Source of the DNA: Nostoc sp. PCC 7107
GTDB lineage: Bacteria > Cyanobacteriota > Cyanobacteriia > Cyanobacteriales > Nostocaceae
NCBI RefSeq assembly: GCF_000316625.1
Contig: NC_019676.1
Coordinates: 3,304,501 to 3,368,500, forward strand
Direction of reading: 5' to 3'
Length of the DNA stretch: 64,000 nucleotides
The position numbers and the translations under genes are program-made. The notes under the pieces are model-generated. The model made no database searches. It was not told the DNA's origin and was given only the letters and a program-made list of their open reading frames with translations. This document shows, piece after piece, positions 1 through 52,124 of the stretch (within the stretch, counting starts at the first letter, position 1; each line of letters starts with the position of its first letter).

Positions 1-565
1 CGCTAATACGCTTACTATTGATATAAGGAGAGCCATTGTAAAAGCTGAGTAAAGCAGTCAAGGCACAGTAATAAATATTATCAGCTTCTTCGCTGTATTC
101 GTGCAGTTCTTCGATTCCTGGTGCTACTGATAAATTATCCATCAAGAGTGTCAGATAATTTAATGCACGTTGGATTATGTAATTAGTATAATGACGAGTC
201 CAATTTTGCAAAAAGGTATGTTGATTGTGCAGTTTTGCCCAGATAATACTTTCGGCTGTAGCACGATTAAACTCTTTATCCTGTGCGCGTCTATGTTGGT
301 AGGTGAGATATTTTGCTTGTCGTTGGGATGGGTTTTCTAACCTCCCTAAATATTCACCAGTTTGGGTTAAATATAAGACGGGAATGTTATGTGAGCGAAC
401 AATTTGAATGACTTCTTTTGGTAAATTGATATTACCAAAGATGATAAACTGACTGAGATTGCGGATGGGAATACAAATGCGTTGAGTTTGTTGATAAAAC
501 ACCTTTAAATATTGGTGTTGAATTTGGAATGTTACGTCCTGTTCAGTGATGTAAATTGTAGACAT
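1..565 (-). CDS. cas1: Cas1 CRISPR integrase, N-terminal part (runs off the window edge)
   Basis: An open frame starts at the ATG at 565-563 and runs without a stop to base 1, giving about 188 residues. It begins MSTIYITEQDVTFQI and continues with the Cas1 N-terminal beta domain: 'IRNLSQFIIFGNINL', 'NIPVLYLTQTGEYLGRL' and then helical sequence. The same blocks occur in the Cas1 half of the RT-Cas1 protein at 3670-5688, so the family call is firm. The beginning of the catalytic domain is visible as 'EYSEEADNIYY', where family members usually read G-x-E-G-x-A-A-x-x-Y-F. Depending on alignment the catalytic Glu is either one of these Glu residues or is replaced by Ser. The rest of the active site lies outside. 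It may belong to a second CRISPR-Cas locus to the left. No array leader adjoins it inside the window. Confidence 0.85.
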   Translation of the reverse strand, partial: MSTIYITEQDVTFQIQHQYLKVFYQQTQRICIPIRNLSQFIIFGNINLPKEVIQIVRSHNIPVLYLTQTGEYLGRLENPSQRQAKYLTYQHRRAQDKEFNRATAESIIWAKLHNQHTFLQNWTRHYTNYIIQRALNYLTLLMDNLSVAPGIEELHEYSEEADNIYYCALTALLSFYNGSPYINSKRIS

Positions 566-1614: not shown

Positions 1615-3344
1615 GTTTCCATCCCCGTGAGGGGTAAGTGATTTAAAACGGAGATTTGCAAAAAATAAAAAACGCTATGTCAAGTTTCCATCCCCGTGAG
1701 GGGTAAGTGATTTAAAACCTCTCTGCAAAATCAGGGAGAAGAATTGACCCCTGAGGAAGAAGCCGTTTCCATCCCCGTGAGGGGTAAGTGATTTAAAACA
1801 AGAGAGATCCACATATTTTTACAGTTGAAATTCTTGAGTTTCCATCCCCGTGAGGGGTAAGTGATTTAAAACTCTTTGTATTAGGATCACTAGCATACTT
1901 CCACCATGAGGTTTCCATCCCCGTGAGGGGTAAGTGATTTAAAACCCTAAATGGAGAACAGCTTACTTCCAAAACTGTAAATGTTTCCATCCCCGTGAGG
2001 GGTAAGTGATTTAAAACTTATAGAAAAAGGCGGAGCCGCATTCGATGCGGCGATCAAGTTTCCATCCCCGTGAGGGGTAAGTGATTTAAAACTTGTCACG
2101 GATATTTTGTTGCCTGGGTGGCAAAAGCGTTTCCATCCCCGTGAGGGGTAAGTGATTTAAAACACGTTTTTGTGTTGGTAAGCAATGCTGCTGGGGATCG
2201 TTTCCATCCCCGTGAGGGGTAAGTGATTTAAAACACTTGAGTTTCACTCTAAAGGACAGGGTGTTGCTGTAGTAAAGTTTCCATCCCCGTGAGGGGTAAG
2301 TGATTTAAAACAATTGGCAAATTTCTGCGTTTGGAGGGATTGTGTTTCCGTTTCCATCCCCGTGAGGGGTAAGTGATTTAAAACAATGTCGCAAAGAAAA
2401 ATCTTCGAGATAAGATTAGAAGTGTTTCCATCCCCGTGAGGGGTAAGTGATTTAAAACCGTATCATATAGGCGAAGATAGTCTTAAAGACTGGGGTATTC
2501 TTTGTTTCCATCCCCGTGAGGGGTAAGTGATTTAAAACCACAAGATGTGCGCAATAACTTGGAGCAGAGAAAAAGTTTCCATCCCCGTGAGGGGTAAGTG
2601 ATTTAAAACGATGTGCTTTGAATTTTTCAAAGCACAAAGTCAGCCATTGTTTCCATCCCCGTGAGGGGTAAGTGATTTAAAACTAGTGGTAGTTTTGGCG
2701 AAACTACATGCAACGACAAAGTTTCCATCCCCGTGAGGGGTAAGTGATTTAAAACAATTTTCGCCGAGCGGCGGCGTGGGCGGAGCAGCAACGGTTTCCA
2801 TCCCCGTGAGGGGTAAGTGATTTAAAACCATTCGGCATTCTGGCTCGGTTGGAGGTCGCATTCGTGAGTTTCCATCCCCGTGAGGGGTAAGTGATTTAAA
2901 ACGATATAGTTGCCTCGCTTGCAACTTTAATAGCACATAAAAGTTTCCATCCCCGTGAGGGGTAAGTGATTTAAAACTCTGGGGCAAAACATCACCTTGT
3001 CGTACGGTACCGAGGTTTCCATCCCCGTGAGGGGTAAGTGATTTAAAACGAATTCTAGAGTTAATGTCTCAAAAGGGCTATTCTAGTTTCCATCCCCGTG
3101 AGGGGTAAGTGATTTAAAACATTAAATGGTTACCAGCTCCTGAGAGGCTGGCAACTATGTTTCCATCCCCGTGAGGGGTAAGTGATTTAAAACTTTTTAT
3201 TTTCCCATTTCATCTCCTGCGGGAGGGGAGATGGTTTCCATCCCCGTGAGGGGTAAGTGATTTAAAACCACAAAAGATCTCAGAAAGGGGCAAGCGCATC
3301 CTCGCCCTGGTTTCCATCCCCGTGAGGGGTAAGTGATTTAAAAC
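1615..3344 (-). CRISPR. CRISPR array 1, 24 repeats and 23 spacers
   Basis: Twenty-four copies of a 35-base repeat, apparently identical, are separated by 23 spacers of about 34-46 bases. On the minus strand the repeat starts GTTTTAAATCACTTAC and ends CACGGGGATGGAAAC; the central CCCC-TCAC-GGGG can form a short hairpin. Repeats start at 1615, 1684, 1765, 1838, 1911, 1983, 2058, 2129, 2200, 2277, 2350, 2424, 2504, 2575, 2649, 2721, 2794, 2868, 2943, 3015, 3086, 3159, 3234 and 3310. The orientation is set by the leader at 3345-3540 and by the GAAAC end, so transcription runs right to left and the newest spacer is 3269-3309. Six spacers carry perfect stems of 6 bp or more with short loops (see findings). 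The repeat matches array 2 except at positions 6 and 10-12. Confidence 0.98.
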
Positions 3345-3540
3345 CCTACTCTTACACAGACCTTACCAAATAAAGCTTACAGAAGTGTAAAACTGAGGGG
3401 GGTCTGTTTTACCTGTCAACAAACTACCATTATTGACAATAAAGGCAGTATCAAATTCACTCAAACGCTTATACAGTAAGTCATCTGAGGGGGTCTACGA
3501 AACAATAGGCTTTTCAGCATTTGGCTGACCCCCTCAGTTT
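3345..3540 (-). promoter_or_regulatory. leader of CRISPR array 1
   Basis: Read on the minus strand this region aligns with the leader of array 2 over most of its length. Shared blocks are CTGAGGGGGTCAG, GACCCCCTCAG, CTTACTGTA, TTTGAGT, TTGACAGGTAAA and AGACCCCCCTCAG; both end GTAGG directly before the first repeat. CTGAGGGGGTC (3485-3495) and GACCCCCTCAG (3527-3537) form an 11-bp inverted repeat, with a third, near-identical copy at 3393-3404. Promoter and integration-site functions are inferred from position and conservation. Confidence 0.85.
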
Positions 3541-3669
3541 ACATTTCTTTACAAACTTGTTTTAGGAAACTAACTATTAAGTTACAAACAAAGAAGGCTG
3601 ATTGAATTTTCATGGTGCAGGCATTGGTATAAACAATACCATACCAATCAACATGATGCAATTTCTTGA

Positions 3670-5688
3670 TTAAGGTTTCCAAATCATTGGTCGATAGATT
3701 TTTACCTCTCCTGTCAGACAAGCTACATACTCCCGCACTTGTAACTCTAAACACCTGCGGAAACTCACCTTATATCCTGTATTTGGGTGCGTTAACTCCG
3801 ACTGCAACTTTTCTTCCCAGTGCTTGAGAAACTTTTTCAACGCATGGGGTTGAAGATATACGCCTCCTTTTTCATCAGGAGGGGTAAAATCATCTTCTGT
3901 GAAAATATTGGAATTAATCAAATAAGCAACTAAAGAATCAACTAGTTGAGCGCGAAATTCCTCCATTAAATCGCTAACCAAAGCTGGGTGATTATCGCGG
4001 GGAACATGAAGATTACCAAAGTGACTGTGTAATCCTACAGCTTGGATAAACGAGAAAATATTGTGGCTAAGTAAGGTATATCCTAAACTTAAAAGGCTAT
4101 TCACAGGGTCAGTTGGTGGGCGTTTGGTACGCTTTTCAAATTTAAACGCACCAGAAAATAAACTTCCTAATGCTTGAAAATAAACTGTTGCGGCTCTTCC
4201 TTCATATCCTCGCAACGCATCCATACTTTCTGCAAAAGGTAATTTATCCATCAAAATATCTAAATCTTTGATTGCTTCTTTGACAAGATTATCGTCGAAC
4301 TCTGATGATTTTCGGCGTTTTAAACGCATCAATAAAATGCGAGAGTTATGAATTTTAGCTGTCACAATTACTTCTGCTAGAGTTCGTGTAAACTCAGGAT
4401 TTTGGCAACGTTCAACCTGTAACATCAAATATTCAACCTTAGCATCACCCGAAACTTGCAATCTACCAAAATATCTGCCCTTCTGCGATAAATACATAAT
4501 CGAAATTCGTCGCCGCAAAGCCATACTCACCGCACCATGCGAAACATTACAACAACCAAATAACACCACATTACTCACTCGACTAACTGGAACCTTAATT
4601 CGCAATTGACCTTGATAATAAACTTGGAATTGCTGATTTTTGACACTTAAATATGCGCCTTGGTCTGTTATATATAAAGTAGTCATGGTTTCCTGCCAGT
4701 AATGAGATAAAGATGCTCTAGGAAAGTTAATCGGCTTGTCAATACTGCAAGCTTTAGGCGGATGAGAAACTGGTTTTTTTGGTCTTGGTTTAGTGCGAAA
4801 ATAAGGATTACCCGAATCATTAATTACCCATTCACCTTTGAGTACAGGTTTGGGAGGCGGTGGTGCATAAACTTCACCGCCAGCAAAGCGATAACCTAAA
4901 AAAGTAAACTCATCATTAGGAGTGAAAATCTGTGTCTTCTCTGATTGGAGAGTTAAATAAACCTCTCCCAACCAAACAGTAATTTTGTCAAGGATGCGGT
5001 TGGCTTCTTGCCAACTATTACAAGCAATCACAAAATCATCACCATACCGCACTAAATTAATCCCTTGACTCAGACATTTTTTATCAAAATTAGTCAGATA
5101 TAAATTAGCTAAAGCACCAGAAAGTATTCCACCTTGTAAAACTCCTTTGCCAAAATTACGATATTGTCCAGCAATGATCATTCCTGATTGCAACTGTTGT
5201 TCTATTAACTGTAATACACTCGGTTCAAGAGATAATTTCTCCAAGAAAGTTAACAACAATGCCCAAGAAAGATTATCAAAAAAATCAGCAACATCAGCTT
5301 TGATAATCCATTTCGGTTGATATTGGTAATATCCATATAAATGCTGTACTGCTTGCAGAATATTGTGTCCCGGACGATAAGCATAGCTACAATCTAGAAA
5401 GGTACCTTCTAAAGGAAAATACAACTCATCTAGTAGCAAACGCTGAATAATTCGATCCCGCACAGTAGGGATACCAACTAACCGCTTATCACCATTTTTT
5501 TTAGGTATATAAAACCCCTTGGCGGGACTTGCTGTATAAGTTTCATTGTTGAGTTGATAGACGAGATTCTGCAATTGTTCAGTAGCCATCGACTCGAATA
5601 ATTCTACAGAAATCCCATCTACACCCGCAGTCTTACTCCCCGCACAAACTTGTAGCCATGCGAAATGTAGATGTTCTTGAGTGAACAT
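3670..5688 (-). CDS. reverse transcriptase-Cas1 fusion (CRISPR adaptation)
   Basis: This 672-residue fusion has an N-terminal reverse transcriptase (residues about 1-290) with motifs in order: 'AGVDGIS', 'KGFYIPKKNGDKRLVGIP', 'KADVADFFDNLS', 'GVLQGGILSGALANLYL', the catalytic 'RYGDD', 'LTLQSEKTQIF' and 'FTFLGYRF'. YGDD replaces the more usual YADD. A Pro- and Lys-rich linker follows, then Cas1 from about residue 336 ('MTTLYITDQGAYLSV'). Its catalytic set is Glu in 'GYEGRAATVYF', His in 'GLHSHFGNLH' and acidic residues in 'LMEEFRAQLVD'. No N-terminal Cas6 domain is present. By family it integrates spacers and can use RNA as a source; RT-Cas1 proteins accompany type III systems. It lies between two inward-facing leaders. 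No cas2 was found next to it, which is unusual. Confidence 0.95.
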   Translation of the reverse strand: MFTQEHLHFAWLQVCAGSKTAGVDGISVELFESMATEQLQNLVYQLNNETYTASPAKGFYIPKKNGDKRLVGIPTVRDRIIQRLLLDELYFPLEGTFLDCSYAYRPGHNILQAVQHLYGYYQYQPKWIIKADVADFFDNLSWALLLTFLEKLSLEPSVLQLIEQQLQSGMIIAGQYRNFGKGVLQGGILSGALANLYLTNFDKKCLSQGINLVRYGDDFVIACNSWQEANRILDKITVWLGEVYLTLQSEKTQIFTPNDEFTFLGYRFAGGEVYAPPPPKPVLKGEWVINDSGNPYFRTKPRPKKPVSHPPKACSIDKPINFPRASLSHYWQETMTTLYITDQGAYLSVKNQQFQVYYQGQLRIKVPVSRVSNVVLFGCCNVSHGAVSMALRRRISIMYLSQKGRYFGRLQVSGDAKVEYLMLQVERCQNPEFTRTLAEVIVTAKIHNSRILLMRLKRRKSSEFDDNLVKEAIKDLDILMDKLPFAESMDALRGYEGRAATVYFQALGSLFSGAFKFEKRTKRPPTDPVNSLLSLGYTLLSHNIFSFIQAVGLHSHFGNLHVPRDNHPALVSDLMEEFRAQLVDSLVAYLINSNIFTEDDFTPPDEKGGVYLQPHALKKFLKHWEEKLQSELTHPNTGYKVSFRRCLELQVREYVACLTGEVKIYRPMIWKP

Positions 5689-5726
5689 GATGAATAAGTA
5701 AAAAGTAAAAAGGCAAAAGTTTTAAA

Positions 5727-5818
5727 GTAGGTTGGGTGAAGCAACAGCGAAACCCAACATAGATTTTGCCAACTCAAGATGGTTTTATATTGAGTTTTTT
5801 AACGTCCACCCAACCTAC
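5727..5818. repeat. inverted-repeat-bounded intergenic element (MITE-like)
   Basis: GTAGGTTGGGTG (5727-5738) and CACCCAACCTAC (5807-5818) are perfect 12-base terminal inverted repeats around about 68 bases that also contain AACCCAACA. This resembles the small palindromic repeats scattered through Nostocales genomes. It sits between the RT-cas1 start and the putative operator, so it would lie in the leader of that transcript. Confidence 0.65.
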
Positions 5819-5837
5819 AATTTAATTGTTGCAGTGC

Positions 5838-5899
5838 TATATATGAGTTCGTGTATGGGTTATTGACTCTTTTATATGAGTTCGTATATGACTTATGCC
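5838..5899 (-). promoter_or_regulatory. putative operator/promoter of RT-cas1
   Basis: ATATATGAGTTCGTGTATGG (5839) and TTTTATATGAGTTCGTATATG (5870) stand 31 bases apart, exactly as the related pair upstream of the partial cas1 (642 and 673). The motif TATATGAGTTCG is repeated within the element. It lies about 150 bases upstream of the start codon, separated from it by the inverted-repeat element at 5727-5818. The regulatory role is inferred from conservation. Confidence 0.5.
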
Positions 5900-5928
5900 A
5901 ATTCAAAAATTATGAATAAATTTGCTCA

Positions 5929-5953
5929 AGAGACGTTGCATTGCAACGTCTCT
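5929..5953. repeat. 25-base near-perfect palindrome
   Basis: AGAGACGTTGCA and TGCAACGTCTCT flank a single T. A related palindrome with the GTAGAGACGTTG arm occurs at 44474-44501, so this is a dispersed repeat family. Here it lies just beyond the 3' end of the small gene at 5963-6241 and could act as its terminator. Confidence 0.7.
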
Positions 5954-5962
5954 ACATCTAGA

Positions 5963-6241
5963 TTACTGCATCAAAATTTGACGGCTTAAAATACTCATCA
6001 CCTCATCTGGATTACCCGTTGCTTGCAGTGGACTCCAATCTCCCACACTGGCGTAACCAATAACTTGCAAATAGTGAATTGTACTGGTGACGGCTTTGGG
6101 AGAACCAATTAGTAAATGTTTAATTGGTTCTCGGTGGGGAAATGGTTGTTGGGGTATTTGCTTGGGAGTGGGGAAGTGGAAGTTTTGTCTTAAGAACTGG
6201 ACTAATGGGAATTGGGCGAATTTGAGTAATTGTGCCATCAT
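5963..6241 (-). CDS. conserved hypothetical protein, 92 residues
   Basis: This short protein of unknown function has no signal peptide or membrane segment. It contains an N-terminal 'FAQFPLVQFLRQNFHFP', a Pro-rich turn ('PKQIPQQPFPHREPI'), then 'KHLLIGSPKAVTSTIHYLQVIGYASVGDWSPLQAT' and 'DEVMSILSRQI'. The alternating hydrophobic pattern and an AAGGAG-like site about ten bases before the ATG at 6241 support a real gene; similar small proteins of unknown role are, from memory, common in cyanobacteria. It lies inside the CRISPR island between RT-cas1 and the HTH-DUF4384 gene, on the RT-cas1 strand. Whether it is CRISPR-ancillary or only a bystander cannot be told. Confidence 0.7.
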   Translation of the reverse strand: MMAQLLKFAQFPLVQFLRQNFHFPTPKQIPQQPFPHREPIKHLLIGSPKAVTSTIHYLQVIGYASVGDWSPLQATGNPDEVMSILSRQILMQ

Positions 6242-6525
6242 TATCTGTATGCTCCTTTTGTGAGGGGTATAAAAGCGATCGCTCTCTTCTTGCCGGAATC
6301 AGACGATCGCTTTTACCTTTTGTGGGGTTTAGATAAGGGCGGTTGCTTTGTTCTTTGGGGAAGGAAGCGATCGCCTTTATCATGTCTTTTATATTAAAGT
6401 ATAAAATTATACTCGTCAACTACTAATTCCAAAATTTTTATTACTAATTTCCCAATTTTTACAAAGACAAATTATCTTAAATAGCAGTTAACTTTTACCT
6501 TTTACCTTTTTACTTTTTACTTGTT
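6242..6525. other. intergenic region with HIP1 sites and heptamer repeats
   Basis: This is the spacer between the divergent genes at 5963-6241 and 6526-7269. It holds several GCGATCGC-type octamers and, at 6491-6521, a run of TTTTACC-type heptamers of the short tandem repeat class. A 99-codon frame on the minus strand (6120-6419) is judged non-coding. No clear promoter was identified. Confidence 0.5.
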
Positions 6526-7269
6526 ATGTCTCGAACTCTGGTAGCATCACCTGAAGGCGTACAACTAGCAAGAAAAGCCCTAAAAGCTAAAAATTTAACC
6601 CAAACAGATTTTGCTATAGAAGTAAGATTAGGTTATTCAACTGTTAGTAATTTCTTCAACACTAAACCGATATATCGCACAAACTTTCAAGAAATATGCG
6701 TGTTTTTGGGTTTAGACTGGAAAGACATCGCCGTGTTTGGTGATATAGAAACCGAAGAACTCTCACCCCTCGATAAATTATGGCAACAACTTCAATCATT
6801 AGGTTCGCCAACTGAACAAATGGGTTTAGTCTTAGTCAAAGAAGAAACACTTGGTTGGGGGACAAGAATCCCCAGTCGGTACGAAACATCAGTGCAAATC
6901 GGGAGTTACATTCAAGTTGAGATAAATTTGTCAACTCCCGGTTATTTATTGTTATTGCAAAAAGATACATCTGGGCAAATGTGGTGTTTTTGTCCTTCAT
7001 GTTTTGCTCAACAGCCACACTTAGATACTGGTAAAACCAGCTTACCGCAACCGGGTTCACCAATGAACGCTTTCCCCGTCGAAGGAACTCCCGGTAAGGA
7101 AGAAATTATCGCCATCATTACCAAAGAAGTACCTCAATTAGACTGGTTAACCCAAGATAATGATGAGGTTTTAGAACTAGAAGCTAGTCATCTGACAGAA
7201 TTACTAAATTATGTGCATGAACACGAAGAATCTCAACTTTGGTATACAGATTACATGGTGAGCGCATGA
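6526..7269 (+). CDS. HTH (XRE-like) protein with C-terminal DUF4384 domain
   Basis: The 247-residue protein starts with a helix-turn-helix region (about residues 8-70): 'GVQLARKALKAKNLTQTDFAIEVRLGYSTVSNFFNTK', typical of XRE-family DNA binding. The C-terminal part (about 115-210) matches the DUF4384 pattern, with 'GYLLLLQKDTSGQMWCFCPSCFAQQ' and 'FPVEGTPGKEEIIAIITKE'. DUF4384 often accompanies caspase-like and kinase proteins in cyanobacteria; its function is unknown. The gene ends about 120 bases before the leader of array 2 and points toward it. It may control the CRISPR transcripts, which is inference from position. Alternatively it is a passenger of the island. No enzymatic motif is seen. 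Confidence 0.8.
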   Translation: MSRTLVASPEGVQLARKALKAKNLTQTDFAIEVRLGYSTVSNFFNTKPIYRTNFQEICVFLGLDWKDIAVFGDIETEELSPLDKLWQQLQSLGSPTEQMGLVLVKEETLGWGTRIPSRYETSVQIGSYIQVEINLSTPGYLLLLQKDTSGQMWCFCPSCFAQQPHLDTGKTSLPQPGSPMNAFPVEGTPGKEEIIAIITKEVPQLDWLTQDNDEVLELEASHLTELLNYVHEHEESQLWYTDYMVSA

Positions 7270-7389
7270 TAAAAAAGTTAATGTTTTCAGCTTTCAAAAT
7301 TTAAGGTATTTTGTTATACTGCCCTTTAAAAGCACAGAACCTTGAAAACTTAATCTAAAGTTTCCAACTGGAACTTAAAGTATTGATTT

Positions 7390-7605
7390 TGACTTTCTTT
7401 ACATAAGTTTACCTGAGGGGGTCAGGCGATCGCTGAAACCCTTATTCTTTCGTTGACCCCCTCAGGTAGCTTACTGTACAAGCTTTTGAGTCTGGTCTAA
7501 TAGCCTTCTATTCTCAATAATATGTACTTATTGACAGGTAAATTAGACCCCCCTCAGAAATGCCTATCTCTAACCCTCTCTGGCTAAGGCTTCTAAAAGG
7601 GTAGG
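7390..7605 (+). promoter_or_regulatory. leader of CRISPR array 2
   Basis: The region holds the inverted repeat CTGAGGGGGTC (7413-7423) and GACCCCCTCAG (7455-7465), then TTGACAGGTAAA and AGACCCCCCTCAG (7545-7557), and ends GTAGG before the first repeat. These blocks match the array 1 leader in order and approximate spacing. Promoter and integration-anchor functions are inferred. Confidence 0.85.
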
Positions 7606-9538
7606 GTTTTCAATTCATTACCCCTCACGGGGATGGAAACGAGCAATTGTGACCTGGGAGGTCACGGGTAAGCCCGTGTTTTCAATTCATTACCCCTCAC
7701 GGGGATGGAAACCTCAGGATTTCAGCTTTCTCCGCATTACACGCGCAGAAAGTGTTTTCAATTCATTACCCCTCACGGGGATGGAAACTATTCAGGTCTG
7801 CCGGGTGGCTCCTGAAATTTTTTCGTTTTCAATTCATTACCCCTCACGGGGATGGAAACTCTCATTTGCATCTGGTGGGAATGAATGCACCGAAAGTTTT
7901 CAATTCATTACCCCTCACGGGGATGGAAACTTGACAACACCTTGTCCCCAAGGGGGGAAGAGGTTCTATGGTTTTCAATTCATTACCCCTCACGGGGATG
8001 GAAACAATAGTGATGGGGGTAAATGCCTCCGCCCTGGCCTCCAATAGTTTTCAATTCATTACCCCTCACGGGGATGGAAACTCTCTTGTGTTAGTGGGTT
8101 GGCTTAAGTTGTAACCAAGTTTTCAATTCATTACCCCTCACGGGGATGGAAACTTGTCGTCTGCGTTAGCAGGTACTAAAACAGTTTCTAAACCAGTTTT
8201 CAATTCATTACCCCTCACGGGGATGGAAACTGGAGATCGACTTGTACTGCGGTACCTGTCTGAGTCCGGGTTTTCAATTCATTACCCCTCACGGGGATGG
8301 AAACTCTATAGTTTCATCAAACTCACAACACAGTATTTTGTTTTCAATTCATTACCCCTCACGGGGATGGAAACACTTGAGGCGGGGGATGCACCTCCCC
8401 CTCCTACACATTTGTTTTCAATTCATTACCCCTCACGGGGATGGAAACTTTTTGGATGTTCTCAAGCGTGCACTTTGGATCATTATTGTTTTCAATTCAT
8501 TACCCCTCACGGGGATGGAAACAAATATTTTCCCGCATGACCTACTAGAAAATTATCTACATCGTTTTCAATTCATTACCCCTCACGGGGATGGAAACTT
8601 GGACGACGCGACTCGAGAGGATTCTCCCCTCAGAAAATTGTTTTCAATTCATTACCCCTCACGGGGATGGAAACCATAAGTAAAATTGCGACTCATTCCG
8701 CAGGAAGTAACTGTTTTCAATTCATTACCCCTCACGGGGATGGAAACATGTACGTATGGTGGACTATAATTATATCCGGGGATGTCGTTTTCAATTCATT
8801 ACCCCTCACGGGGATGGAAACCTTAAAAATTTGCAATTCTTTACACTGATTAATTGTTTTCAATTCATTACCCCTCACGGGGATGGAAACCCAAGGGTGC
8901 CTTGCTGCAACGCGGTTACAACAAAAGTTTTCAATTCATTACCCCTCACGGGGATGGAAACAAACCTAATAGACCACCAGTAACCGCGCTGAAACCAGGT
9001 TTTCAATTCATTACCCCTCACGGGGATGGAAACTTTAATTTCAGTCTGACTAATGCTTGGAGCAGGGGTTTTCAATTCATTACCCCTCACGGGGATGGAA
9101 ACTTTTTTTACTTCAGTTTCAAAAACTGTCAGATCAAAATGTTTTCAATTCATTACCCCTCACGGGGATGGAAACCTCAAGGACAAGGCAGGAACCTAAG
9201 CCCCTGAACTGTTTTCAATTCATTACCCCTCACGGGGATGGAAACCCTTTCCCGCTTAAGCGGTGAAGGATATCCAAATTATAGTTTTCAATTCATTACC
9301 CCTCACGGGGATGGAAACTCTGTCGCATCGGGATTTATCCCGATGCAAACTTTGGTGTTTTCAATTCATTACCCCTCACGGGGATGGAAACCTGAAGTAG
9401 TTGCGCGGCGAGCTGTGCTGGTGTGATTGGAGTTTTCAATTCATTACCCCTCACGGGGATGGAAACTCAGCAGTATCTCGTTTGACACTGTCCAACGGAA
9501 GGTGTTTTCAATTCATTACCCCTCACGGGGATGAGAAA
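7606..9538 (+). CRISPR. CRISPR array 2, 27 repeats and 26 spacers
   Basis: Twenty-seven copies of a 35-base repeat starting GTTTTCAATTCATTAC and ending CACGGGGATGGAAAC. Repeat starts are 7606, 7678, 7754, 7825, 7896, 7971, 8047, 8119, 8196, 8270, 8340, 8414, 8488, 8564, 8640, 8713, 8787, 8856, 8927, 8999, 9068, 9141, 9211, 9284, 9357, 9432 and 9504. The last copy is degenerate at its 3' end (GGGGATGAGAAAT), which marks it as leader-distal. Transcription is left to right and the newest spacer is 7641-7677, which contains two adjacent hairpins. Four spacers have perfect stems of 6 bp or more with short loops and others have imperfect ones. Many apparent short frames in this region are only translations of the repeat. 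Confidence 0.98.
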
Positions 9539-9599: not shown

Positions 9600-12500
9600 A
9601 TGAAAAAACTTATAAAACAACTCAATCAACTTAACTTACAAGTTGTAGAATTAGCAGGACAAGGAAACCTAGAACAAGCTCTAATAGTTGCCCAGCAAGC
9701 TGTAAATCTAGGCAAAAATCAACAGCTAACAGAAAATCCTGAATATTGTGATAGCTTAAATAACCTCGCCGAACTATATCGGATGCAAGGACGTTACTTA
9801 TTAGCCCAGCCCTTATACTTGCAAACCTTAACTCTCAGGAAAAATATTCTAGGTTCAGAACATCCTGATGTTGCTCAATCTTTAAATAATCTCGCAGCTT
9901 TATATCATGCACAAGGTAATTATATAGAAGCGGAAAAACTATTTTTAGAAGCATTGGAATTGTGGAAAGATATCTTTGGTGAAGAGCATTTTCAAATTGC
10001 GACTAATTTAAATAATCTGGCAGAAATATATCGAGAACAAGGAAAATATTTCCAAGCCGAACAAGTACATTTAGAAGTTTTAGCAATGCGAAAACGCTTG
10101 TTTGGTGAATCACATCCTGATATTGTCCAAACATTAAATAATTTAGCCAACATTTACACATCACAAGGCCACTATGCAGATGCAGAACAAATGCACCTAA
10201 AAACCTTAGCGATGAAACAAAGCTTATTTGGCGAATCACATCCAGAAATTGCTGTTAGCCTGAATAATTTAGCTGCATTGTATGACTCTCAAGGGCGTTA
10301 TTTAGAGGCTGAAGCAACGTTTCATGAAATTCTAACCAAATTGCCAAAAATCCTCCCAAATGAACATCCATACATAGCAACTATCTTAAATAATCTTGCC
10401 AGCAACTATAAAGAACAAGGACGCTACCGAGAATCGGAACAAAAATATCTAGAAGCTTTAGCAATGCGGAAACGCTTGCTAGGAAATCAACATCCTGATG
10501 TAGCAGCGAGTTTGAGTAACTTAGCTGATGTGTATGTTAGCCAAGGACGTTATTTAGAAGCTGAACAAATTTATTTAGAAGCTCATGGGATGAGGAAGCA
10601 ATTGTTCACTTCTGAACACCCTGATATTGCTGAGAGTTTAAGGAATATAGCAGTAGTTTATACATATCAAGGACGCTATTTAGAAGCAGAGCAACAATAT
10701 TTGGAAGTCTTACCTATGCTGGAAAAATTGTTAGGGAAAGAGCATCCAGTTATTGCTGATAATTTAATTAATCTAGCCGCACTTTATGAAGAACAAGGAC
10801 GTTATGCAGAAGCTGAACAGAAATATTTGATAGCGTTAGAAATCCAAAGAAATATTCTAGGGTTAGAACATCCAGAAATTGCCCATACTTTCAACCAAAT
10901 AGCAGTACTTTATCGCCTTCAAGGACGATATGCAGAGTCAGAAAAGCTGCATTTAGAGTGTTTGGCGATGGCAAAACGTCTGTTAGGAGAACAACATCCA
11001 TTTGTTGCAGTTGTTCTGAATAACTTAGCAGTATTATATGATGATCTAAATCAATATTCTCAAGCAGAATCATTATTTTTAGAAGCTCTAGCAATTGTTA
11101 AAACTGCCTTCGGTAATGAACACCCGCAAGTAGCAACTACCATGAATAACTTAGCTGTTATTTATGATTTTCAAGGGCGTTACCAAGAAGCAGAACAACT
11201 GCATCTAGAAACATTAAACCTGAGAAAGTCTTTATTAGGGGAAGAACACCCAAAAGTTTCTATAAGTCTGAATAATCTGGGAGAACTTTACTTTTCATTA
11301 GGGCGTTTTGCACAAGCAGAGCAGAAGTATGTGGAAACTTTGGCGATGCGAAAACGCTTATTGGGAGAAGAGCATCCCGATGTGGCGTTTAGTATGAATA
11401 ATCTCGCTACTGTTTTAGCTGCGACTAACCGCCCAGATGAAGCATTGGCTTATCGCATTGCAGCCAGTAAAATTGAGGATAAGATTATTCGTAACATATT
11501 TGCGTTTAGTTCGGAAAGCGATCGCCTCTCCTTCCTCGACAAAATCAGAAATAATTTTGATTTATTTCTCTCGTTAGTTTACCAACATCTATCCAACTCC
11601 GATAACGCCAAACTTGCAGCCCTAGATTTTATCTTAAAACGCAAAGGACTCACAGCATCAGCCCTGGCGGCTCAAAACCAAGCTCTCTACAGTGGACGCT
11701 ACCCCCAACTCCAAGAAAAATTTCGTCAGCTGAGTGATTTAAACACGCGACTGGTGCATTTAACTTTCTCGGTTCCGCAAACCGATGACACCTCGACAAC
11801 CGAGAAAACCTTACACCAGTTGAGAACTTACCGAGAGAATTTAACACGACTGCAAGCACAGTACAACTACTTGCAAAAACAACTAGCATTGCAAGTACCA
11901 GAGATTCAGTTATCTGAGGAAACTTTTGACCGTCAAACTATAGCCGCAGCCTTACCTCCTGATTCTATTTTGGTCGAATTTGTCCGCTTTGATGTATTTG
12001 ATTTTCAGGCGATCGCCGCGAATGGAGCAACTCAATGGTATCCGGCTCGATATCTAGCATTTATTCTAAAAGCCGGACAACCAGACGCAGTGCAGATGCT
12101 TGACTTAGGAATAGCCGCAACCATTGATGAAGTAATTCAGGTATTTCGCTTACAAGCCTCTGACTATCACCAGCCAACATTAGCTTTGAGAAAAACCCCC
12201 AATAAACCAAAGCTGCATATACAATCTTACGATTCCACAGCCGCTATTCAACTGAGTCAACTGCTTTTTGCACCTATCCGTGACTGTGTAAAAGATTGCA
12301 GACATTTAATTGTTGCACCAGATGGCAATTTAAACCTAGTGCCGTTTCAGATTTTGCCTGTCGATAACACTGGTACAAGACTGTTAATGAATGAATATAC
12401 CATCAGTTATCTCAGTGTTGGCAGAGAAATTCTTCACAGCAAAGTACAAAAACCAAAACCTTCCATCTCTGCACCACTGATTATTGCTGATCCTGATTTT

Positions 12501-13376
12501 GATTTAACAGCAGAGTCCGCTACAAATTTAGCTTCCAAGGCGGAAACGAAAATCAAACCACCCATCCCAGAAACAACCTTGCGTCGCGCTGTGGGGACAA
12601 GATTTTTGGGTGAAAGTGTGGCGAAAAAACTTCTGGATGCAAAATTATACTTAGGTACAGAAGCATTAGAAAGCCGCCTAGTCAATAGTGATTGTCCTAA
12701 TATTATGCTGATTGCCACTCACGGCCTATTTTTGAGTAACTCTGAAACAAAACCAAGCGATCGCCAGCGTACTTTTTTGAGTATAGAACGTCTGCGAACC
12801 ACCAAAGCAGAAAACCCGATGATGCGTTCTGGACTGGCTTTAGCAGGTGCTAACACATGGCTATGCGGTGGAACTCTCCCCCCAAATGCAGGCAAAGGTT
12901 TTGTTTTCGCCCAAGATATCGCCAGTTTAGATTTGTGGAATAATGAACTGACGGTTCTTTCTGCTTGTGATACCGCCAGAGGAGACATTAAAATTGGCGA
13001 AGGTGTATTTGGTTTACGTCGTGCTTTTGCCGTAGCGGGTTCACAAACCCTGGTGATGAGCCTATGGCCAGTTCCAGATAGAGTAACAGCCTTCTTGATG
13101 GAACGTTTTTTTGATAATTTACAGTCTGGTATTGGCCGAGCCGAGGCGTTACATCAAGCTCAGAACTATGTGCGTACAATTACTGTTAAAGAATTACGGC
13201 AATCAGCTTTGGGTGTTGAGGTACTAAAAGAACTTTTAAGAGCTAAGGAAGTATCAGCAGACAGCCAGATTGATTGTCAAGAAGAAGACACACCATTGCA
13301 GCATCCTTTTTACTGGGGAGCCTGGATTTGTCAAGGAAATACAGAGCCACTAACAGTTAGAGCAGTTTTTAGCTAA
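9600..13376 (+). CDS. TPR-CHAT protein (putative caspase-clan protease)
   Basis: The 1258-residue protein has about 13 kinesin-light-chain-type tetratricopeptide repeats of 42 residues (roughly residues 45-600, each like 'LNNLAxLYxxQGRYxEAE...EHP') plus a partial fourteenth. A linker with coiled-coil character follows, then a CHAT domain. The catalytic His is near residue 1041 ('IATHGLF') and Cys near 1122 ('SACDTARG'), so it should be an active cysteine peptidase. Its substrate is unknown. It starts 61 bases after the degenerate last repeat of array 2 and reads the same way, so CRISPR transcripts could run into it. Proteins of this make-up are common in filamentous cyanobacteria and are not the same family as the type III-E TPR-CHAT, so a CRISPR link is speculative. 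Confidence 0.9.
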   Translation: MKKLIKQLNQLNLQVVELAGQGNLEQALIVAQQAVNLGKNQQLTENPEYCDSLNNLAELYRMQGRYLLAQPLYLQTLTLRKNILGSEHPDVAQSLNNLAALYHAQGNYIEAEKLFLEALELWKDIFGEEHFQIATNLNNLAEIYREQGKYFQAEQVHLEVLAMRKRLFGESHPDIVQTLNNLANIYTSQGHYADAEQMHLKTLAMKQSLFGESHPEIAVSLNNLAALYDSQGRYLEAEATFHEILTKLPKILPNEHPYIATILNNLASNYKEQGRYRESEQKYLEALAMRKRLLGNQHPDVAASLSNLADVYVSQGRYLEAEQIYLEAHGMRKQLFTSEHPDIAESLRNIAVVYTYQGRYLEAEQQYLEVLPMLEKLLGKEHPVIADNLINLAALYEEQGRYAEAEQKYLIALEIQRNILGLEHPEIAHTFNQIAVLYRLQGRYAESEKLHLECLAMAKRLLGEQHPFVAVVLNNLAVLYDDLNQYSQAESLFLEALAIVKTAFGNEHPQVATTMNNLAVIYDFQGRYQEAEQLHLETLNLRKSLLGEEHPKVSISLNNLGELYFSLGRFAQAEQKYVETLAMRKRLLGEEHPDVAFSMNNLATVLAATNRPDEALAYRIAASKIEDKIIRNIFAFSSESDRLSFLDKIRNNFDLFLSLVYQHLSNSDNAKLAALDFILKRKGLTASALAAQNQALYSGRYPQLQEKFRQLSDLNTRLVHLTFSVPQTDDTSTTEKTLHQLRTYRENLTRLQAQYNYLQKQLALQVPEIQLSEETFDRQTIAAALPPDSILVEFVRFDVFDFQAIAANGATQWYPARYLAFILKAGQPDAVQMLDLGIAATIDEVIQVFRLQASDYHQPTLALRKTPNKPKLHIQSYDSTAAIQLSQLLFAPIRDCVKDCRHLIVAPDGNLNLVPFQILPVDNTGTRLLMNEYTISYLSVGREILHSKVQKPKPSISAPLIIADPDFDLTAESATNLASKAETKIKPPIPETTLRRAVGTRFLGESVAKKLLDAKLYLGTEALESRLVNSDCPNIMLIATHGLFLSNSETKPSDRQRTFLSIERLRTTKAENPMMRSGLALAGANTWLCGGTLPPNAGKGFVFAQDIASLDLWNNELTVLSACDTARGDIKIGEGVFGLRRAFAVAGSQTLVMSLWPVPDRVTAFLMERFFDNLQSGIGRAEALHQAQNYVRTITVKELRQSALGVEVLKELLRAKEVSADSQIDCQEEDTPLQHPFYWGAWICQGNTEPLTVRAVFS

Positions 13377-51610: not shown

Positions 51611-51867
51611 ATTAAGACTTACGCAAAACACCTCTCAAACTCTCATTTCTCCGTGACCTCTGCGTCTCTGTGGTTCGATTTTCCGTAGCCTGTGCGTAAG
51701 TCCTGTAAATAATTAAATGCCTGTGGTGCGTTGTCTTTTGCGACAACGCACCATATTTTTTGGTGTTGTTGAATCAGGGGATGAAATTTTATATACTCAA
51801 AATCTAAAACTCCTCATTCTCTCTGCGCCTCTGCGTGAAACAGCTTTATAAAAAATTGCTATTAGTG

Positions 51868-52035
51868 AAATTCGGACTGTTGTTTATCGAATTTGGGCTG
51901 TCGTTTATTGAATTTGGGCTGTTGTTTATCGAATTCGGGCTGTTGTTTATCGAATTTGGGCTGTCGTTTATTGAATTCAGGCTGTCGTTTATTAAATTTG
52001 GACAGTCGTTTATTGAATTTGGGCTATCGTTTATT
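51868..52035. repeat. 21-base tandem repeat, 8 copies
   Basis: Eight units of the type GAATTYGGGCTGTYGTTTAT run in tandem with a few point differences, mostly at the same Y positions. Units start at 51868, 51889, 51910, 51931, 51952, 51973, 51994 and 52015. Because 21 is a multiple of three, frames stay open on both strands (heptads 'FGLLFIE' on plus and 'NDSPNSI' on minus), but no gene is believed. It ends 89 bases before the aroA start. Confidence 0.95.
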
Positions 52036-52124
52036 AAACGCAGTCGAAGTAAACTCCCCATATTTCTTAATCCCCCGAACTCACGTAATATTTAAGGTGT
52101 AGCTGACCATCTAAGAGGTATAAC

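Follow-up and report, generated by a model that had tools for sequence, protein, structure and literature searches.

From what nucleic acid do the spacers beside a reverse transcriptase (RT) fused to Cas1 come, and why do so many of them fold? The question is raised by a stretch of 64,000 nucleotides (the window; 3304501-3368500) of the 6.33-Mb, one-contig genome of the cyanobacterium Nostoc sp. PCC 7107, in which two arrays of clustered regularly interspaced short palindromic repeats (CRISPR) face one another with an RT-Cas1 gene in between. Array 1 (1615..3344, minus strand, read from the right) has 24 repeats and 23 spacers, and array 2 (7606..9538, plus strand) has 26 full repeats, one degenerate end repeat, and 26 spacers; the repeats of both are exact and correspond to Rfam CRISPR-DR37. 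Here, we report that these spacers are rich in perfect hairpins and that the excess is replicated in RT-Cas1 arrays of other cyanobacteria, is linked to the RT, and comes with RNA-like loop lengths and a coding target strand. The spacers are probably derived from RNA, whether from RNA replicons or by capture of transcript segments.

Hairpins in the two arrays

A hairpin was scored where a perfect stem of at least 6 bp enclosed 3 to 9 nucleotides (nt); 10 of the 49 spacers carried one, six with stems of at least 7 bp and two with stems of at least 9 bp. Mean counts in 1,000 dinucleotide-preserving shuffles were 2.41, 0.61, and 0.04 (p = 0.001 each, the floor of the test), and in random segments of the same window 2.07, 0.52, and 0.08 (p = 0.001, 0.001, and 0.005). 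The excess is real and beyond chance. In array 1 (minus strand), hairpins lie in spacers A1_06 (2035..2051; 7 bp, loop 3), A1_11 (2400..2417; 6 bp, loop 6), A1_14 (2612..2636; 11 bp, loop 3), A1_15 (2689..2707; 7 bp, loop 5), A1_18 (2908..2926; 6 bp, loop 7), and A1_22 (3211..3233; 7 bp, loop 9); in array 2 (plus strand), they lie in A2_01 (7649..7665; 7 bp, GTGACCT/AGGTCAC, loop 3), A2_11 (8384..8401; 6 bp, loop 6), A2_21 (9114..9128; 6 bp, loop 3), and A2_24 (9325..9346; 9 bp, loop 4). All ten had been listed in the original prediction and were recovered where it had placed them, with the stem at 7649 lengthened from the 6 bp given there to 7 bp; its hand estimate of one or two such spacers by chance lies near both computed nulls.

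A scan for self-matches, confined to the cores of 2 of the 49 spacers, covered 192 genomes of the family, including that of the window, and allowed 2 mismatches at most; neither the A1_14 hairpin (27-nt core) nor the A2_24 hairpin (26-nt core) had a second copy. Elsewhere in the same genome, 5 of the 23 spacers of two distant arrays had stems.

Link of the excess to RT-Cas1

RT-Cas1 loci were sampled from a genome collection (36 loci) and from 50 further stretches (10 + 40), and 58 of them (19/36, 8/10, and 31/40) yielded arrays lying no more than 5 kb from an RT hit (RT arrays). For controls without an RT, 50 stretches surrounding other cas1 genes were used (arrays from 43/50), and type III-B controls, having their own cas1 without an RT, came from 20 stretches (19 arrays counted) and seven plasmid loci (6 arrays counted); at some control loci, the subtype was assigned by cas1 similarity and not by annotation. 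Arrays were detected with our own script (at least four exact 18-mers, three for the plasmid set). Those with a mean spacer length above 44 nt were excluded (limit, 46 for the plasmid and III-B counts, from which the L291 array and three others were removed by length or distance from cas1), and duplicate spacers were removed ahead of counting. Arrays of undecided orientation (seven RT arrays with 83 spacers, one array more than 5 kb from the RT, and one non-RT array) were left out of the strand differences and kept, in the orientation as read, in the folding energies.

In the first count, the RT arrays (78 arrays from 59 loci including the window's; 1,557 spacers) had 197 spacers with stems of at least 6 bp against 63.4 expected, 82 against 15.7 with at least 7 bp, and 31 against 3.2 with at least 8 bp. 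The corresponding counts for non-RT arrays other than III-B (54 arrays, 1,747 spacers) were 95 (5.4%) against 59.6, 40 against 14.7, and 14 against 3.2; they include seven arrays (53 spacers at six loci, 6 with stems of at least 6 bp) that have an RT-Cas1-like cas1 and no RT hit in the stretch, and leaving these out gives 89/1,694. Adding seven arrays of two plasmids brought the RT total to 205/1,620 in 85 arrays, and with the window's own 49 spacers set aside, stems of at least 6 bp were still found in 195/1,571 (12.4%) of the spacers from 83 further cyanobacterial arrays. Such stems were more frequent in RT arrays than in III-B arrays without an RT (Fisher p = 4e-4) and than in the other non-RT arrays (p = 2e-13).

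Folding energies gave the same separation. On the target strand, the excess over shuffles was -1.24 ± 0.07 in RT arrays, -0.54 ± 0.08 in III-B arrays without an RT, and -0.43 ± 0.06 in the other non-RT arrays. With GC content and length as covariates and bootstrapping by array, the RT effect was -0.69 kcal/mol against III-B (95% confidence interval, -0.92 to -0.43) and -0.71 against the others (-0.92 to -0.52), and arrays of at least five spacers, taken as units, also set RT apart from III-B (Mann-Whitney p = 0.0015). The shift is broad: after removal of every spacer with a stem of at least 6 bp, the excess was -0.81 ± 0.07, -0.34 ± 0.08, and -0.27 ± 0.05 in the three groups. Within single genomes, compared from a hand-made locus table, 9 of 11 showed the stronger structure in their RT arrays (Wilcoxon p = 0.010), with stems of at least 6 bp in 43/417 RT and 26/456 non-RT spacers (p = 0.012).

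The original prediction had tied the hairpins to RT-Cas1 and had named two outcomes that would speak against it: energies no lower than those of dinucleotide-shuffled controls, and the same enrichment in arrays acquired by ordinary Cas1. The RT energies lie below the shuffles, and the excess in ordinary-Cas1 arrays is weaker than in RT arrays, though present; neither outcome came about.

Smaller groups were counted in the same way. Where RT and cas1 are separate genes (84 spacers), 8 spacers had stems of at least 6 bp against 3.6 expected. Arrays more than 5 kb from the RT at RT loci, some of which may belong to other systems, had stems in 31/244 spacers. RT loci sampled from the wider class gave a weaker energy excess (-0.77 ± 0.19; 200 spacers), and RT-Cas1 arrays in other phyla, represented by 20 spacers of two plasmids, gave 7 stems of at least 5 bp against 2.4 expected and 2 of at least 6 bp against 0.56.

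Shape, position, and strand of the hairpins

Loops of 4 to 5 nt made up 93 of the 194 RT hairpins (47.9%; null, 31.9%; p = 2e-5). The same share was 47.0% in levivirus contigs, 33.8% in the Nostoc chromosome, 31.0% in III-B spacers, and 28.9% in the other non-RT spacers, and this skew favors RNA over palindrome-rich DNA elements as the source. Hairpin centers were distributed as in shuffles, with no favored position, as would be the case if the hairpins were set by the source rather than by the cut; 30/194 stems (15.5%; null, 13.8%) reached a spacer end, and the remainder had unpaired flanks on both sides. This placement speaks against snap-back synthesis and against capture of exactly bounded hairpins. 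The spacer ends themselves, read in the orientation of the CRISPR RNA (crRNA), show a symmetric preference, for T at position 3 and for A at position -4 (40% each), which is not seen in that form in III-B spacers.

The target strand is coding-like in RT arrays (open-frame difference, -0.148 ± 0.024) and in III-B arrays (-0.145 ± 0.034), with 0.019 ± 0.023 in other arrays. Because III-B arrays without an RT share the bias, it belongs to type III in general and folding alone is RT-linked; strand bias as proof of RNA origin was accordingly dropped. The target strand also folds better than its complement (RT, 0.230 ± 0.058; III-B, 0.110 ± 0.077; other arrays, 0.064 ± 0.050). A first count found stems with G-U pairs on 102 target strands and 73 crRNA strands of 759 spacers (shuffles, 49 and 44); this asymmetry was suggestive as an RT signature at first and was given up when the larger set left RT and III-B not clearly apart.

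Three diverged pairs of RT spacers share a hairpin, with 0/14 mismatches falling in stems that make up 29-39% of the overlaps (chance about 0.004 as a product of chances, our own estimate); in three pairs involving non-RT arrays, 6/24 mismatches fell in stems. Such conservation would be expected of an RNA structure with a function in the source, as far as three pairs can suggest it. The RT arrays of L071 and L046 contain pairs of overlapping spacers that derive from diverged variants of a single target and have their stems intact; in one L071 pair, third codon positions account for 4 of the 5 changes (FSVLCLLATLA / FSFLCLLATLA), and coding and stem both appear to have been kept.

Source of the spacers

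We tentatively propose that the RT-Cas1 module, together with a Cas2, would copy folded, protein-coding pieces of RNA into both arrays. The spacers would thereby carry the hairpins of the source RNA, and the crRNA would be antisense to coding RNA, as a type III effector needs. As the source we favor RNA replicons, either RNA phages or coding RNA elements of other kinds, with genomes that are structured along their whole length; classical leviviruses would make up a small part of this pool at most. That the spacers were drawn from such structured coding replicons, and not from a selected part of ordinary transcripts, is quite possible, if well short of assured.

The resemblance to RNA phages lies in the stem profile. 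Stems of at least 5, 6, 7, and 8 bp occur in 29.5, 12.7, 5.3, and 2.0% of RT spacers and in 26.0, 10.7, 4.2, and 1.3% of unselected 38-mers from 81 levivirus contigs; 38-mers of Qbeta, PP7, and AP205 are also alike, those of MS2 less so (7.6% with at least 6 bp). Profiles are lower in the Nostoc chromosome (16.5, 5.5, 1.4, and 0.5%), in non-RT spacers (17.1, 5.4, 2.3, and 0.8%), and in the flanks of the loci (about 14, 4, and 1.2% for at least 5, 6, and 7 bp). Hairpin density and loop lengths are thus those to be expected if Leviviricetes were the main source. Ribosomal RNA was rejected as a source, 38-mers of three 16S/23S loci with flanks being less hairpin-rich (5.2, 2.4, and 3.6% with at least 6 bp).

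Leviviruses of the known type were then rejected as the main source on coding content. A levivirus profile of the RNA-dependent RNA polymerase (RdRp; at least 4 bits) matched 1/1,474 RT target strands and 177/1,500 held-out levivirus windows, so classical leviviruses supply at most a few percent of the spacers; the contigs had been chosen by conserved motifs, and very divergent leviviruses would escape. The replicase motifs [YF]GDD and SxASDS (verified, like MGNG, on four phage replicases) had 0 matches each in RT target strands, and the one MGNG did not look like that of a levivirus replicase. The target strand of one L136 spacer, beside an RT-Cas1, encodes QVVGDDVILPS, near the replicase motif C SVVGDDVILPT of L194, a levivirus contig with three main genes. 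The L136 peptide is also found in viral contigs L193 and L202, in the latter antisense to a gene that we take, by eye, to be capsid-like.

Several results weigh against this proposal. The RdRp scarcity just given is one; over the whole set, the L136 hit has p of about 0.014 (3/286 shuffled sets reach its score), and the 1,537 target strands contain a single GDD with hydrophobic neighbors (hydrophobic-x-GDD-hydrophobic), where about 7 would be expected, by our own estimate, if all came from 4-kb RdRp viruses. No protospacer of an RT spacer turned up in the few data searched. III-B arrays without an RT also exceed shuffles (58/745, 7.8%, against 31 expected for stems of at least 6 bp), show as strong a coding-strand bias, and are not separated from RT arrays at the array level by the fraction of spacers with such stems (Mann-Whitney p = 0.15). 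A third, small array of the Nostoc genome, situated 5 kb to the left of the two arrays around RT-Cas1, has stems in 0/6 spacers. The 38-mers of the DNA cyanophage Ma-LMM01 are intermediate (20.1, 6.9, and 2.7%), short loops are favored in two DNA phages as well (40.7%; null, 33.2%; p = 0.02), and four reference RNA phages favor loops of 3 to 4 nt, with a 4- to 5-nt share that is not significant (43.6%; null, 36.6%; p = 0.12).

The protospacer searches covered phages with the two window arrays, two other RT arrays, and one III-B array, and viral contigs scanned exactly for three spacers, none of which gave a match; plasmids were searched with protein queries only. One non-RT array matched two Nostoc phages. 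In one of them, YongM (MT426122.1), 62764-62875 matches seven pieces of the non-RT array L129 and is perhaps a repeat-like phage element.

The alternative that survives best keeps RNA as the template and moves the selection to the capture step: RT-Cas1/Cas2 would take ordinary transcripts, of phages or otherwise, and prefer their folded segments, which might survive RNases, be left with 3' OH ends by RNase III, or be taken as duplex. An RT-Cas1 has been reported to acquire from both RNA and DNA, and RNase III, which cleaves structured RNA, has been named in the same paper as a possible supplier of 3' OH fragments (in the parts of PMC11014452 drawn on here). The RT excess together with the coding target strand supports it, and the scarcity of RdRp motifs fits. 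The lack of a preferred hairpin position (end-reaching stems at close to the null rate) and the conserved stems of the diverged pairs, three pairs only, are not what it predicts, and we consider it possible but somewhat unlikely.

A DNA source, in which the hairpins come from abundant inverted repeats of phages or mobile elements and the RT is incidental, is unlikely. It would account for the excess over shuffles in non-RT spacers (95 against 59.6 of 1,747; 58 against 31 of 745) and for the intermediate profile of Ma-LMM01. However, non-RT arrays are less structured than the RT arrays of their own genome in 9 of 11 cases, with both facing a largely shared pool, and non-RT spacers lack the short-loop skew; the better folding of the target strand is in the direction that G-U pairs on RNA would give, with RT and III-B not clearly apart.

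Snap-back fossils, in which RT-Cas1 folds the template back and makes the second hairpin arm during acquisition, are very improbable: DNA synthesis of this kind by RT-Cas1/Cas2 is described in vitro in the portion of PMC11014452 cited here, whereas the stems do not run to the spacer end beyond the null rate and the three diverged pairs share both arms. Intrinsic terminators at transcript 3' ends, which the original prediction had offered as one example of a structured source, can be dismissed almost entirely. Single spacers do show a hairpin followed by a T run (e.g., one of L044), but of the 194 hairpins, a T4 run within 8 nt downstream is present for 2 when the target strand is read (null, 2.5%) and for 5 when the crRNA strand is read (null, 3.4%), both below the null, and the target strand is coding-like. 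What stood of that interpretation is the RT-Cas1 link and structured RNA as the best-fitting source.

Locus and neighboring genes

RT-Cas1 is encoded by a single 672-amino-acid (aa) open reading frame (ORF; 3670..5688, minus strand) with Pfam RVT_1 (2.4e-35) and a full Cas_Cas1 domain (9e-92); the RT motifs are KADVADFF and YGDD, the latter the catalytic motif, intact at residue 215. The leader of array 1 (3345..3650, minus strand) aligns with that of array 2 (7301..7605, plus strand), and because the two are homologous, one adaptation module probably serves both arrays. A second, stand-alone cas1 (346 aa) enters the window at its left edge (1..565, minus strand); beyond that edge come the rest of the gene and then a 92-aa ORF, which by its sequence we take to be Cas2-like. 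Cas10/Cmr2, Csx10 (III-D), and Csx7-type RAMPs are encoded some 5-14 kb outside the window on its left side, with Cas6 also to the left. The RT-fused Cas1 and the nearby type III effector genes agree with an RT-Cas1-associated type III CRISPR-Cas system, and the folding and loop statistics fit the acquisition of spacers from RNA that such a system would show.

Second, distinct cas1 genes are frequent at RT-Cas1 loci (L289, L290, L030, L071, and others), and at L289 a cas2 follows the second cas1. A 1258-aa TPR-CHAT protein (9600-13376) adjoins array 2, and an HTH-DUF4384 protein (6526-7269) is divergent from RT-Cas1. TPR-CHAT and DUF4384 proteins likewise stand by RT-Cas1 in Anabaena cylindrica (L290), as do, from annotation, a TPR protein and a DUF4384 protein in Nostoc edaphicum (L289). 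TPR-CHAT proteins also occur in type III-E systems, and a conserved accessory of the protease type is a possible interpretation. A pair of small ORFs (927-1578), flanked by the second cas1 and array 1, looks by eye antitoxin-like and PIN-type-toxin-like. Farther right, 51848-52057 is a tandem repeat with a 21-bp period, in which eight overlapping 63-nt copies were found.

Comparison with known systems

Type III spacers have been reported to show a coding-strand bias of the target (PMC8482600, in the portion consulted), likewise seen here in RT arrays and in III-B arrays without an RT; the text of that paper has 0 occurrences of "hairpin" or "secondary structure." The Marinomonas mediterranea system (PMC11014452) has the RT-Cas1 fusion in common with ours, and acquisition from RNA and DNA is reported there; hairpin enrichment in natural spacers is not described in the available parts of that report, and the in vitro snap-back products it presents do not fit the hairpins seen here. 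RT-containing type III systems are said to target riboviruses (PMC10847044, citing its reference 8), and of 63 spacers reported to match Obelisks, 9 were assigned to type III (PMC13096302). As far as the cited portions of these two papers go, such cases are individual spacer matches, mostly in other bacteria, whereas the signature reported here is population-wide, cyanobacterial, and found without a match. Among the matches listed in open-licence literature, there was no earlier report of spacer folding in RT systems.

The closest known relatives are the cyanobacterial RT-Cas1 type III systems of Silas et al. (2017; PMC5513706), which share the RT-Cas1 fusion, the type III loci, and spacers of unknown source; the Nostoc locus differs in sitting with a III-D-like operon (Cas10, Csx10). 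RT-linked spacers of Arthrospira are hyperdiverse: as stated in the portion of that paper used here, of about two million Arthrospira spacers, one RT-linked spacer matched, neither a DNA virome nor an RNA virome gave a confident match, and the spacer source in cyanobacteria was left open. "Hairpin" is absent from its main text and "secondary structure" appears once, on group II introns; the folding signature is what the present analysis adds. That signature, which separates RT from non-RT arrays, could serve as a match-free readout of RNA origin, testable at once on existing spacer sets; it points to folded coding RNA as the source, and the share of classical leviviruses is capped. More speculatively, cyanobacterial RT-Cas1 arrays could be an archive of largely unseen structured coding RNA replicons, beyond classical leviviruses or Obelisk-like, in which folding statistics would tell RNA-derived from DNA-derived memories without a protospacer match.

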